From positions 18,256-82,255 of the forward strand of contig NZ_LT828556.1 in the NCBI RefSeq assembly GCF_900170035.1: 64,000 nucleotides of DNA. Reading direction: 5' to 3'. Position numbers and translations under genes: made by a program. The notes below the pieces were generated by a model that searched no databases, was not told the origin of the DNA, and was given only the letters and a program-made list of their open reading frames with translations. The stretch comes from Desulfamplus magnetovallimortis. GTDB taxonomy: Bacteria; Desulfobacterota; Desulfobacteria; Desulfobacterales; Desulfobacteraceae. Position 1 is the first letter of the stretch. Each line of letters begins with the position of its first letter. Of this stretch, positions 17,917 through 22,311 are shown piece after piece.

Positions 17917-18050
17917 AATATATTGACGACAGACTAATAATACATTAACAATAAACAATATCCTTCATTTGCCGGTTTATACTTTCAGGAACAACATTCC
18001 CGTTTTTGGGGAATATTACTACTCTTGAGAATCTTACAGAGAGGGAGAGC

Positions 18051-20912
18051 ATGACTGAAAAAAATAAAACCATGATCCTCACAGTTTGCCCCAGTTGCCA
18101 GAAAAAATACAAGGTTCTCGCTGCCCTTATTGGTAAAAAACTCACCTGCAAGTCATGTTCAGATGTTTTTGAAATAAAATCAAGAAAAAGCTCTCCCCAG
18201 ATTCCTGATATCTGCAGGGTTGCAATGTTTGAGAAAATGGTAACAAAGGAGCAGGTAGAATATGCAATGTGCTCCTTTCAACTGCTTGGCAAGGCTGGTT
18301 CATCAATTTCTTTTGATGATTTTTTTGTTATGTGTGGCCTTGTTTCCGATGAACAGATGGGAATCTTGAATGAGAGGATTGAATCACTGAAAGTTCGCCA
18401 GCTTGATAACCGTTTTTGTACCATTGCCATAAAAAATCGATTTATTACACAGGAAGAAGCGGATGATGCCCTTGAAAAACAGGCAAGACAGTTCAAGGAT
18501 CACCAGACAATGGAACTTATCGGAGATATACTCGTCAATGACGGTGCAATGACCCAGGAACAGCAGGAGAGGGTACTTGCAAGTCAAAAACGCATGTCCG
18601 CTGTTTTTGTTTCACAGGACGAATCCCAAGACGAATCCCGAGATGAATCCCAAGACGAATCCCAGGATGAATCACCAGATTCAGCTCCGGCAGTAGATTG
18701 TGAAGGAAACACCAATTTTGACTCATCATGTTATCCTGAGCCATCATCTCCATCAAATCCACCATCTTCTCCTGAGCCATCATCTCCACCAAAGCCGCCA
18801 TCTTCTCCTGAGTCATCATCTCCATCAAAGCCGCCATCTTCACCTGAGTCATCATCTCCATCCAAGCCGCCATCTTCACCTGAGTCATCATCTCCATCCA
18901 AGCCGCCATCTTCACCTGAGCCATCACCTCCATCCAAGCCGCCATCTTCACCTGAGCCATCACCTCCATCCAAGCCGCCATCTTCACCTGAGTCATCATC
19001 TCCATCCAAGCCACCATCTGCTCCAGTTCCACCATCTCCTTCTGAGCCACCATTTTCTTCAGCATCCAAAGAGAATAAGGATTGTGACAAATCAAGGTTT
19101 GACAACACCGGAGATAGCGGGAAAATATTGCCAGCATTCAGGATTCAGGTTGCAGGTGACGGGTTAAAAGCTCTACTCCAGATTAACAGGATTACAGATA
19201 AGATAGTTACGCTTGATATGGTAAGGTCTGAAATGAATGCTGCTAAAATTGCGTATGGAGTGGTTGATGATGGTGTTATTGAATTGTTTTTACGAAAAGT
19301 ATCAAAAAAAATACTGTTAAATAAAAGAGCCGCATTAAATAGTGAGCATCCAAAGGATAATGGTGCTTCCAAAAATGACGATGCAGGGATAAAAAAAGAG
19401 GAAGATCCATTTTTTGAACTTGTAATAGCAAGGGGCCTTCCTGCTAAATCCGGAAAAGATGCTGTTGTAGATTATTTTTTTGATACAGATTATCTGAAAA
19501 TTGGCGCAAAAAAGAAGGATGGCAGTATTGATTTCATGGACAGGGGGGAGATACCTTTTGTGTCAGCAGGAGATTTGCTTGCGGAAAAAACACCTGTTGA
19601 GTGGCCAACCCAGGGGGTGGATGTCCATGGATTGCCCATTGAAGCCCAGGCCGTTTCGGATATTCCTATAAGATGCGGTAAGGGCGCTGCATTTTCCGAG
19701 GATAAACTTAAGGTTGTGGCAAAGGCAGCAGGAGAACCAAGAGTTACCTACGATGGTATGATTTCGGTTCTGATGGAGCACAAAATTGCAGGTAATATCG
19801 GCTTGAAGACCGGTCATGTTGACTTTGAGGGCAATATAATCGTAAGTGATACAGTTAGAAGCGGTTTTCGTGTTAAGTGTGCTACATTGAAAGCTGCAAC
19901 CATTGAGTCCGCTGATATTGAAACCACAGGAGATGTTCTTGTAACAGGAGGTATAACAGGGGCAACTATTCGTTCCCAGGGGCGTGTTGTAGCAAAATAT
20001 ATCATAAAATCAGATATCTCTGCATATGGTGATGTTGTTGCTGAAAAGGAGATTCTTGACTCTACCATCCAGACCAGTGGTTCTTGTATCACAAAAAACG
20101 GAAGCATGATATCTTCTGAAATTGCATCCAAACAGGGTATTGAATCAAGAGAAATTGGTACTGAAACATCTTCACCATGCATTTTGCGTGTTGGAGGAGA
20201 TGATCATCTTGAGAAGGAACTGGCATCTATAAGGGATGAGACAGAGGCATGCAGGGAACGCATGGAAGAGAGTGTAAAAAATGCCAATCAGTTAAAAAAA
20301 GAGAATCGTGAGCTGGCCGAGAAAATTGTTGCCTTTGCCCATGTTCAGGACAGAGGACAGCTTGAAATATCTGAACTTAAACGAAAGCTTGATCTCTTGG
20401 CATTTTCAGGGCAGACAGCTAAGGGAAAAGAGAGTCTTGATAAACGTAACATATTAAATTCAATGGATGCTGTTTCTGAAAATATGAAATCTGCTGAGAA
20501 TGTAGAAGCTGATAATGCCAAGCATGGAAGTGCAGAGTCCCAGATTGTTTATGAAATTCAAAAATTAAATGAAAAAATCCAAAAAGCCAGTCATGATCTG
20601 GAAATATTGTTTAAAAGAGAAGAAGCAATTCAGGAAGAGCTTGAAGCTGCCGATAGAAGTTATAATGATGCTAAAGAGAACATTGAGGTTTTGAAATACA
20701 AAAAAAAGATGATCTTAAAAACATTCAGAAAAAATAAAGGTGCTGCAATTATCAAAGCTCGAAAGGCAATATTGCCCGGAACCGTAATAACAGGGAATCA
20801 TACCAGAAAGGTTGTGGAGAGCAGACTTGGAGGCGTTGTTCTTAAGGAGACAAGGCTCCCCCAAAAGGATGGAGAGCCTGAGGAGTGGGAGTTCTCTGTG
20901 CATAAAAAATGA
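18051..20912 (+). CDS. FapA (DUF342) family protein with N-terminal zinc finger and proline-rich repeat linker
   Basis: The protein, about 953 residues, starts with an MJ0042-type zinc finger (CPSCQKKY...CKSC). A helical region follows, then an acidic DES(Q/R) repeat and a long PSSPESSSPSKP tandem repeat (about residues 228-337). The conserved FapA/DUF342 core runs from about residue 455 to 720, including GVDVHGLPI, GNIGLKTGHVDFEGNIIVSD and GDVLVTGGITGATI. These suggest a stacked beta-helix like that of bactofilin or polymer-forming proteins. The C-terminus is a coiled coil (about 720-880) with a short beta tail. FapA proteins are linked to flagellar placement or assembly. A GGGAGA site supports the ATG at 18051; an earlier start at 18006 is possible. 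A riboswitch-led flagellar-type gene follows downstream. Confidence 0.85.
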   Translation: MTEKNKTMILTVCPSCQKKYKVLAALIGKKLTCKSCSDVFEIKSRKSSPQIPDICRVAMFEKMVTKEQVEYAMCSFQLLGKAGSSISFDDFFVMCGLVSDEQMGILNERIESLKVRQLDNRFCTIAIKNRFITQEEADDALEKQARQFKDHQTMELIGDILVNDGAMTQEQQERVLASQKRMSAVFVSQDESQDESRDESQDESQDESPDSAPAVDCEGNTNFDSSCYPEPSSPSNPPSSPEPSSPPKPPSSPESSSPSKPPSSPESSSPSKPPSSPESSSPSKPPSSPEPSPPSKPPSSPEPSPPSKPPSSPESSSPSKPPSAPVPPSPSEPPFSSASKENKDCDKSRFDNTGDSGKILPAFRIQVAGDGLKALLQINRITDKIVTLDMVRSEMNAAKIAYGVVDDGVIELFLRKVSKKILLNKRAALNSEHPKDNGASKNDDAGIKKEEDPFFELVIARGLPAKSGKDAVVDYFFDTDYLKIGAKKKDGSIDFMDRGEIPFVSAGDLLAEKTPVEWPTQGVDVHGLPIEAQAVSDIPIRCGKGAAFSEDKLKVVAKAAGEPRVTYDGMISVLMEHKIAGNIGLKTGHVDFEGNIIVSDTVRSGFRVKCATLKAATIESADIETTGDVLVTGGITGATIRSQGRVVAKYIIKSDISAYGDVVAEKEILDSTIQTSGSCITKNGSMISSEIASKQGIESREIGTETSSPCILRVGGDDHLEKELASIRDETEACRERMEESVKNANQLKKENRELAEKIVAFAHVQDRGQLEISELKRKLDLLAFSGQTAKGKESLDKRNILNSMDAVSENMKSAENVEADNAKHGSAESQIVYEIQKLNEKIQKASHDLEILFKREEAIQEELEAADRSYNDAKENIEVLKYKKKMILKTFRKNKGAAIIKARKAILPGTVITGNHTRKVVESRLGGVVLKETRLPQKDGEPEEWEFSVHKK
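18616..19060 (+). repeat. In-frame tandem repeats inside the FapA-like gene
   Basis: Two minisatellites lie in tandem. At 18616-18670 a 12-bp unit (GACGAATCCCAA) repeats about four times and encodes DESQ. At 18733-19060 a 36-bp unit encoding PSSPESSSPSKP repeats about nine times. All units are multiples of three, so copy-number change keeps the frame. Confidence 0.9.
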
Positions 20913-21150
20913 TATATTTTAGACAAGATTGGCAAGGGTTGAAAATATTACTGTGACTATAGTATTCCAGATAATTAAATTGGCAAGCACAATGTAGGGG
21001 CAACCCCATGTGGTTACCCTTCAAGGTTAAGATTAAGAAATATTTTTCTGGAAGCCTATACTTTGAGTATTTAGGTTGACATAATTATTTATTACCATTA
21101 AATTTACAAAAGGCGGCATCATTCATATCAAGCTAAACTATATCAAGCTA

Positions 21151-21216
21151 AACTGGACATGGCTGAGATGCAGTCATCTCCAAGGATGGAAATTTCTATC
21201 CCTTTCCACGGTAAAT
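21151..21216 (+). repeat. Interspersed repeat, ACATGGCTG...CACGGTAAA family
   Basis: The block begins TGGACATGGCTGAGATGCAG and ends CCTTTCCACGGTAAATGA. Related copies lie at 24331-24418, 37791-37855 and 38871-38935. A short direct repeat TATCAAGCTAAACT precedes it. The stretch 20913-21150 shows nothing else I can name. Confidence 0.65.
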
Positions 21217-21219
21217 GAA

Positions 21220-21315
21220 ACAGATGCCATAAAGGCAAACTCTTCGAAAGGAGAGGACGCAAAGCTTCCGGCCTGACCCATATATGTAAGTAGCGATACA
21301 AGTTAGAATGTTATA
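21220..21315 (+). promoter_or_regulatory. Cyclic-di-GMP-I (GEMM-I) riboswitch aptamer
   Basis: The core at 21234-21278 matches the GEMM-I consensus closely. AGGCAAACTC leads into a hairpin with the GAAA tetraloop (CTCTTCGAAAGGAGAG), then the invariant GACGCAAAGC, CTTCCGGCC and TGACC. The second hairpin carries the tetraloop-receptor-like GTAAGTAGCGATAC (about 21286-21299). This class senses cyclic di-GMP. The next gene on the same strand, 284 bases downstream, encodes a flagellar rod-like protein, a typical target. A possible expression-platform hairpin lies at 21480-21532. Confidence 0.88.
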
Positions 21316-21353
21316 TTTTTTTAAGTTTTAACTAATTGTTTCTTTGTATCTAC

Positions 21354-21442
21354 TGTTCTTTCAAAGTTTGATTGTCGGATAGAAAATGCCTTGAACCTTT
21401 GAAAGGTCTTAAAAGTCACCCGACAGTTTAAACTTGAAGAAG
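21354..21442 (+). repeat. 89-bp palindromic interspersed repeat (copy 2)
   Basis: Same orientation as 15535-15623, beginning TGTTCTTTCAAAGTTTGATT and ending AAACTTGAAGAAG. It lies between the riboswitch aptamer and the gene it should control, so it would be part of the leader RNA. Confidence 0.88.
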
Positions 21443-21479
21443 AACTACTTACATATGAATATGAAAAGGTAGCGGGGTT

Positions 21480-21532
21480 GCTGATAAAAAATATTTGAGA
21501 GTGACTTTTTTCGTCTTGATTTATCAGCTTTT
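21480..21532 (+). terminator. Possible leader terminator between riboswitch and rod-like gene
   Basis: GCTGATAAA (21480-21488) pairs perfectly with TTTATCAGC (21520-21528), followed by TTTTAAAC. The enclosed loop is long (31 bases) and the T tract short, so the assignment is tentative. Its place in the leader makes it a candidate expression platform. Confidence 0.4.
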
Positions 21533-21583
21533 AAACATTAATTGGCTTTTTAATTGCCACAAGACAGCTAAAGGGAGGGTGTT

Positions 21584-21928
21584 ATGGTATCTTCAATAAA
21601 TAACAGTGCCCAGGCTATCCAGGCCTTTGGTACAGGTATGGCTGTCACTGCAAACAATGTTGCCAATGTGGAATCAGATGATTTTAAAAGCAGCAGGGCA
21701 GTGATGAATGAAGGCGATAATGGCAGTGTCAGGGTTACTTTGAGCCAGGACGCATCTCAGGGACCTCTTGTTACAGGTAGTGATGGCATGACAAAGGAGC
21801 TTTCCAACACCGATCTTGCCAAAGAATTTACCGGAATGATTAATTTTCAGTCCGGTTATGATGCAAATATCAAGGCTGTTCAGGCAGCGGATGACATGAA
21901 AGGCACAGTGATAAATATGATTGCCTGA
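21584..21928 (+). CDS. Short flagellar basal-body rod-like protein (FlgC/FlgB-type)
   Basis: The 114-residue protein joins a rod-protein N-terminal signature (SAQAIQAFGTGMAVTANNVANVESDDFKSS, comparable to the NNIAN...TPGFK motif) to a C-terminal rod/hook helix (DLAKEFTGMINFQSGYDANIKAVQAADDM). FlgC is normally about 140 residues, so the middle is shortened. Rod proteins are exported by the flagellar type III apparatus and build the drive shaft through the periplasm. No other flagellar structural genes surround it, though a FapA-like gene lies upstream. GGGAGGGTG before the ATG supports the start. The leader contains a cyclic-di-GMP riboswitch, so expression is probably tied to the motile/sessile decision. 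The exact role of such a mini-rod protein is unknown. Confidence 0.82.
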   Translation: MVSSINNSAQAIQAFGTGMAVTANNVANVESDDFKSSRAVMNEGDNGSVRVTLSQDASQGPLVTGSDGMTKELSNTDLAKEFTGMINFQSGYDANIKAVQAADDMKGTVINMIA

Positions 21929-22134: not shown

Positions 22135-22311
22135 ACTCAAAGTCGTGATCCATGATCTTGTAAGCCTTGTCAACACTGTCTGAATAAGGATTCCCAAGAT
22201 TAACAAAGATAAGTCAGGATTATCTATCCTGAACATCCTATCCATTATGGTTATCCTGATTCAGACAAATGCAATAACTTCTGAAAAAGCAATAAGATGT
22301 CGATTTTGAGG
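22135..22311 (-). repeat. TCTGAATCAGGATAG composite repeat, reverse copy
   Basis: The segment is a reverse-oriented relative of 45179-45354. It contains ATGATCTTGTAAGCCTTGTC, ATCCTGATTCAGACAA and GATGTCGATTTTGAG, and its left terminal repeat is degenerate (ACTCAAAGTCG). One frame would encode the peptide seen at the C-terminus of the GT-C-like protein. Confidence 0.78.

Follow-up and report, generated by a model that had tools for sequence, protein, structure and literature searches.

The analysed DNA (hereafter the window) is a 64,000-nucleotide stretch of the Desulfamplus magnetovallimortis genome, a 6.68-Mb draft in 108 contigs, in which a c-di-GMP-I (GEMM-I) riboswitch leader precedes a single small gene. 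The encoded 114-amino-acid protein matches Flg_bbr_C at its C-terminus (PF06429, 1.6e-11) and is FlgG-like at its N-terminus (2e-7 against PDB sequences) with little in between, so that it is a minimal, isolated protein of rod/hook type; the original prediction of a lone rod-like gene at this place was correct. Homologs of about equal length occur across much of the bacterial family, and c-di-GMP control would fit a possible role in motility. The gene upstream (18006-20912) encodes a 968-amino-acid FapA-domain protein with a weak zinc-ribbon match and a PPSSPEPS-type repeat tract.

Several repeats lie around the leader, whose own features are listed in Table 1. A dispersed repeat of ~78 bp lies upstream of the riboswitch (20957-21035; about 40 copies, 82-97%), two head-to-tail copies of the 15-nt unit ATATCAAGCTAAACT lie upstream of the aptamer (21125-21154) and another dispersed repeat of ~91 bp lies downstream of the gene (22195-22285; at least 40 copies in the genome, mostly 92-97% identical); counting the repeat inside the leader, three repeat families flank or have invaded the rod-like gene with its leader. 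The three other c-di-GMP-I aptamers of the genome are of normal length and precede short exported-looking proteins with PEP-CTERM-like C-termini (IPVPAAxWLFGSGLxGLxGxRRK), in one case (L003, as opposed to L001 and L002) with another open reading frame between the aptamer and the gene for the PEP-CTERM-like protein.

Table 1. Features of the leader, the controlled gene and the orthologous aptamers (window positions unless a locus is named).
Feature	Position	Strand	Evidence
Interrupted c-di-GMP-I aptamer, full extent	21225..21486	+	RF03167 end-to-end match; orthologs L036, L040
5′ core: GGCAAAC, P2 hairpin with GAAA loop (21240-21255), GACGCAAAGC	21234..21265	+	Rfam alignments; P2 pairing
P3 5′ strand AGCTTCCGGCC	21263..21273	+	10/10 pairs with 21468-21479
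Lineage-specific P3 extension, 5′ strand ATATGTAAGTAG	21282..21293	+	12-bp perfect inverted repeat with 21445-21456; base-pair probabilities
Hairpin A inside P3 (GATACAA.../...TTTGTATC), older than the repeat	21294..21352	+	Fold; P3 long and AT-rich in orthologs as well
Left target-site duplication CTAC (5 bp if CTACT)	21350..21353	+	Direct reading, alignment of copies
91-bp MITE, TG...CA ends in consensus, here TG...AA	21354..21444	+	96% to family consensus
Right target-site duplication CTAC (5 bp if CTACT)	21445..21448	+	Direct reading, alignment of copies
P3 extension, 3′ strand CTACTTACATAT	21445..21456	+	12-bp perfect inverted repeat with 21282-21293
True P3 3′ strand GGTAGCGGGGTT and junction GCT	21468..21482	+	Sole site with 10/10 pairs and AG bulge; near-identical in orthologs
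Intrinsic-terminator-like platform, arms GCTGATAAA (21480-21488) and TTTATCAGC (21520-21528), then TTTT	21480..21532	+	Arms and T run conserved in both orthologs
Controlled gene, 114-aa lone flagellar rod/hook-like protein	21584..21928	+	PF06429 (Flg_bbr_C), FlgG-like N-terminus
Orthologous aptamers, loop insert about 65 nt	L036:840-988, L040:1130-1278		RF01051 69.1 and 67.2 bits

A c-di-GMP-I aptamer with a distant 3′ half

The riboswitch is a real one of the c-di-GMP-I type. A Rfam scan of the whole window returned a single match, to c-di-GMP-I (RF01051, 21224-21303, forward strand), and its 43.7 bits exceed the gathering score of 35, so that the covariance search named as a check of the original prediction came out above threshold, though with a misaligned 3′ half: the 5′ half of the match is excellent and the 3′ half contains many non-standard pairs. 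A permissive Rfam scan restricted to 21200-21560 aligned the clan-sister model RF03167 (c-di-GMP-I-GGC) end to end (model 1-80) over 21225-21486, at 47.6 bits (E = 2.5e-10), with a 188-nt loop insert and one mismatched pair in P1. Because this score lies below the 59-bit gathering score of RF03167 itself, we assign the aptamer to the c-di-GMP-I clan and not to the GGC subclass. The true aptamer spans these 262 nt and the standard match ends on a false 3′ half; an aptamer three times the length expected by the model led the routine scan to a 3′ half that looks plausible but is wrong.

The displaced strand was located by pairing. With the ten P3 pairs and the AG bulge taken from the Rfam structure, a 12-nt partner for 21263-21273 was sought on both strands (127,976 positions), and only GGTAGCGGGGTT at 21468 gave all ten pairs and the bulge; the proximal 3′ half of the Rfam match gave five of ten in the same scan and was rejected. 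A minimum-free-energy fold of the leader, made before the idea of a relocated 3′ half was tested, yields essentially the same P3, whose strands pair with each other with a summed probability of 22.2 (nested pairs only). Preservation of the receptor hairpin within the proximal aptamer was therefore not confirmed, its real 3′ strand lying at 21468-21479.

The motifs on which the aptamer was first recognized (GGCAAAC, the GAAA loop, GACGCAAAGC and CCGGCC) are all present. Alignment with Vc2 equates G20 with G21234, C44 with C21258, A47 with A21261, the bulged G83 with G21472 and C92 with C21481, such that the ligand contacts G20, A47 and C92 and the interhelical C44-G83, with roles as given in PMC4744006 and PMC3764141, are found in the window by alignment. 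Both conserved helices are fully paired (P2 in six of six pairs, P3 in ten of ten), and compensatory differences from the orthologs keep P2 paired. The G at the G20 position presumably indicates c-di-GMP rather than c-GAMP as the ligand. The GAAA tetraloop is retained, and the tetraloop receptor, which had been called well preserved, is in fact the part that has drifted (CCUGA/UAUGAAAAGG in the window versus CCUAA/UAUGG in both orthologs); P1 is weak, with two of three modelled pairs formed in the RF03167 alignment and a C-U mismatch. Since the receptor is degenerate and P1 weak, ligand affinity may be reduced; Cd1 binds without detectable P1 (PMC9262584). We consider a functioning aptamer more likely than a dead one.

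P3 of GEMM-I appears to be a permissive place for inserts, because other aptamers of the same bacterial family carry long P3 extensions, with spans of up to about 180-190 nt among those listed. Like the window, six such aptamers (L147-L150 and the orthologous L036 and L040) combine an intact core with P3 extensions of 60-110 nt, but the 262-nt span of the window is greater than any listed among them. The inserts of L147, L148, L149 and L150 are long and structured, and some share a GGGAUGA...GGGC-like motif; one of these four aptamers (in G019) is truncated by RF01051 (32.5 bits) and recovered in full by RF03167 (51.1 bits), which repeats the detection problem of the window.

The repeat and the leaders that lack it

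As originally predicted, the leader of a GEMM-I riboswitch has been invaded by a dispersed palindromic repeat, which measures 91 bp (21354-21444) rather than 89 bp and is, by its structure, a MITE. It is short and non-coding, and near-identical copies are dispersed through the genome: at least 40 full copies were scored at 83-100% identity, and ~95 right ends (≤2 mismatches) were found in the genome versus none for a reversed control pattern. It has terminal inverted repeats (TGTTCTTTCAAG.../...CTTGAAGAAGCA) together with target-site duplications, exact duplications of 4-5 bp flanking 24 of the 36 unique copies with flanks versus 2.7 expected with right flanks shuffled. In the window the duplication, if read as CTACT, covers 21350-21354 and 21445-21449. 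Seventeen of the 30 fetched right-end loci were examined, and 15 have a left end at 90-91 bp; the other two have none within 1.6 kb, and no longer element, such as an autonomous parent transposon with the same ends, was found at these 17 loci. The RNA of the MITE pairs with itself (summed probability 58.1, versus at most 0.4 with any other region; nested pairs only).

The MITE lies inside P3 and not, as had been proposed, between the aptamer and the terminator, which itself overlaps the 3′ end of the aptamer. Within the P3 extension the MITE interrupts the 3′ strand, between TTTGTATC and TACTTACATAT, and the flanks of the insertion read as a single long interrupted hairpin (ATATGTAAGTAG-CG-ATACAA / TTTGTAT-CTACTTACATAT).

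Seven genomes of the genus, that of the window included, have orthologs of the 114-amino-acid gene. Two congeners (G005 and G009) have a c-di-GMP-I aptamer immediately before the same gene; in the loci fetched from four others (G004, G006, G007 and G008) no aptamer core was found upstream of it. The genomes of both congeners hold more than 30 divergent copies of the MITE each, and the MITE is absent from their riboswitch sites. Both orthologs have GGTAGCGGGGCTGCTGATAAA running straight into the terminator (GCTGATAAA...TTTATCAGCTTTT), and the window has GGTAGCGGGGTTGCTGATAAA followed by the same arms. By arithmetic, the 262 nt less the 91-bp MITE and a single duplication of 4-5 bp come to about 167 nt, compared with 149 in the orthologs. 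We consider it highly probable, as part of the best explanation given below, that the elongation of P3 dates from the ancestor and that the MITE was inserted later.

Terminator, switch logic and alternative readings

The terminator-like stem anticipated at 21480-21528 exists, as a hairpin of -11.9 kcal/mol followed by a short T run (TTTT); the standard terminator scan did not list it, the loop and T-run limits of that scan excluding such a stem. The terminator starts at the equivalents of G91 and C92 and so overlaps the 3′ end of the aptamer, and C21481 is the second base of its 5′ arm, with an equivalent in both orthologs. Because C21481, the expected partner of the ligand, lies within this arm, ligand binding and termination should be mutually exclusive, and c-di-GMP should therefore allow read-through. 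The leader would then be an ON switch, high c-di-GMP leading to transcription into the rod-like gene, by analogy with the pilM GEMM-I riboswitch, an ON switch whose terminator sequesters the ligand-pairing C75 (PMC9262584). The folding energies of the terminator and aptamer states lie 6.0 kcal/mol apart in the window, compared with 5.1 and 6.4 kcal/mol in the orthologs. These values contain no ligand, Mg2+ or tertiary terms, and by this crude measure the MITE leaves the balance of the switch unshifted. The distance from completion of the aptamer to the terminator is likewise unchanged by the MITE, and only the time before completion grows, the MITE presumably delaying it by about 95 nt of additional transcription.

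The explanation that we regard as very likely is a c-di-GMP-I riboswitch with ON logic and an ancestrally long P3 into whose 3′ strand a MITE was later inserted, leaving pocket and platform untouched. The receptor hairpin P3 would have been elongated first, in the ancestor, and the 91-bp MITE would then have entered the 3′ strand of this elongation. In the RNA, the MITE would form a separate hairpin beside the older one, both of them branching from a P3 that has become a 12-bp stem. Around these hairpins the aptamer halves would still pair, with the ligand pocket and the platform untouched. The 5′ arm of the terminator begins with G21480-C21481, and with C21481 expected to pair with c-di-GMP, the bound ligand would exclude termination, so that the rod-like gene would be read through. 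Ligand binding would thus be retained on this explanation, and we find it moderately probable that the leader is a working riboswitch carrying a transposable element inside its aptamer.

In the original prediction a complete aptamer occupied 21224-21303, and the repeat lay between it and the terminator and may have altered or replaced the expression platform. The whole-window Rfam scan does report exactly this interval above the gathering score, but only five of ten P3 pairs form there, the end-to-end match to 21486 scores higher, and in the orthologs the 3′ strand adjoins the terminator directly. The strand and the terminator are contiguous in the window just as in these repeat-free leaders, which rules out a repeat between aptamer and platform or a replaced platform, and we consider a complete proximal aptamer very improbable. 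It is less probable still that the locus is an assembly chimera in which a multi-copy repeat joined two unrelated contig ends: with about 95 repeat ends in a draft of 108 contigs such an error is conceivable, but the flanks are two halves of one aptamer, their target duplications match, they are complementary over a 12-bp stem and they align to one continuous leader in the orthologs, and 91 bp is shorter than an ordinary read.

More weight is due to decay, in which the MITE and the drift of the receptor would have abolished or weakened ligand control and left the leader constitutively terminated or leaky. The degenerate tetraloop receptor and the C-U mismatch in P1 are consistent with this, as is the fact that the insertion is one among many dispersed MITE copies; however, P2 and P3 are fully paired, all the named ligand contacts are present, the terminator is intact and the differences of P2 from the orthologs are paired changes, and we consider decay unlikely. 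Co-option of the MITE for regulation, either through pairing of AAAAGUCAC (21411-21419) with GUGACUUUU (21501-21509) in the terminator loop or through the delay in closing the aptamer caused by the added stretch of about 95 nt, seems improbable. The nine-base complementarity (AAAAGTCAC in the MITE, GTGACTTTT in the terminator loop) is perfect, but a match of this length is near chance level in AT-rich sequence, the pairing would involve the loop so that the stem need not open, and base pairs between MITE and terminator sum to a probability of 0.0 (nested pairs only, pseudoknots being outside the calculation). The complementarity is probably due to chance, and antitermination by pairing of the MITE with the terminator was set aside as unsupported by the pairing probabilities.

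Known systems and meaning of the insertion

The window shares with c-di-GMP-I/GEMM-I riboswitches (RF01051, RF03167) the core, the ligand contacts, the P2 and P3 pairing and the GAAA loop, and differs from them in the 188-nt insert with a mobile element in P3, in the degenerate receptor and in a standard match that is misaligned in its 3′ half. The c-GAMP-responsive pilM ON switch of Geobacter metallireducens resembles it in that the terminator sequesters the ligand-pairing cytosine, making aptamer and terminator mutually exclusive, but the available part of PMC9262584 describes no insertion in pilM. In the pneumococcus, a BOX element lies between two T-box riboswitches upstream of trp (PMC3049150); there, as in the window, a small palindromic mobile repeat sits in a riboswitch leader whose parts fold separately, but BOX lies between two riboswitches, whereas the repeat described here lies within one aptamer and splits a conserved helix. 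This was the nearest case found. Searches of an open-access library, some of them aimed at other questions, brought up no published example of an aptamer that contains a mobile element, which is weak evidence of absence, subscription papers being outside their scope.

In this leader a mobile element has inserted naturally into the aptamer of a known riboswitch class. The case amounts to a natural experiment on RNA modularity, in which a mobile hairpin has entered a structured sensor and the target duplication and the repeat-free orthologs record the state before, and it makes testable where a riboswitch accepts foreign RNA. Other interrupted riboswitches may be misannotated, given a wrong 3′ half by a routine Rfam scan; if the riboswitch does work, nested aptamers would be truncated or missed by standard covariance scans, and P3 of GEMM-I would be a permissive site at which mobile elements rebuild a regulatory RNA without breaking it.
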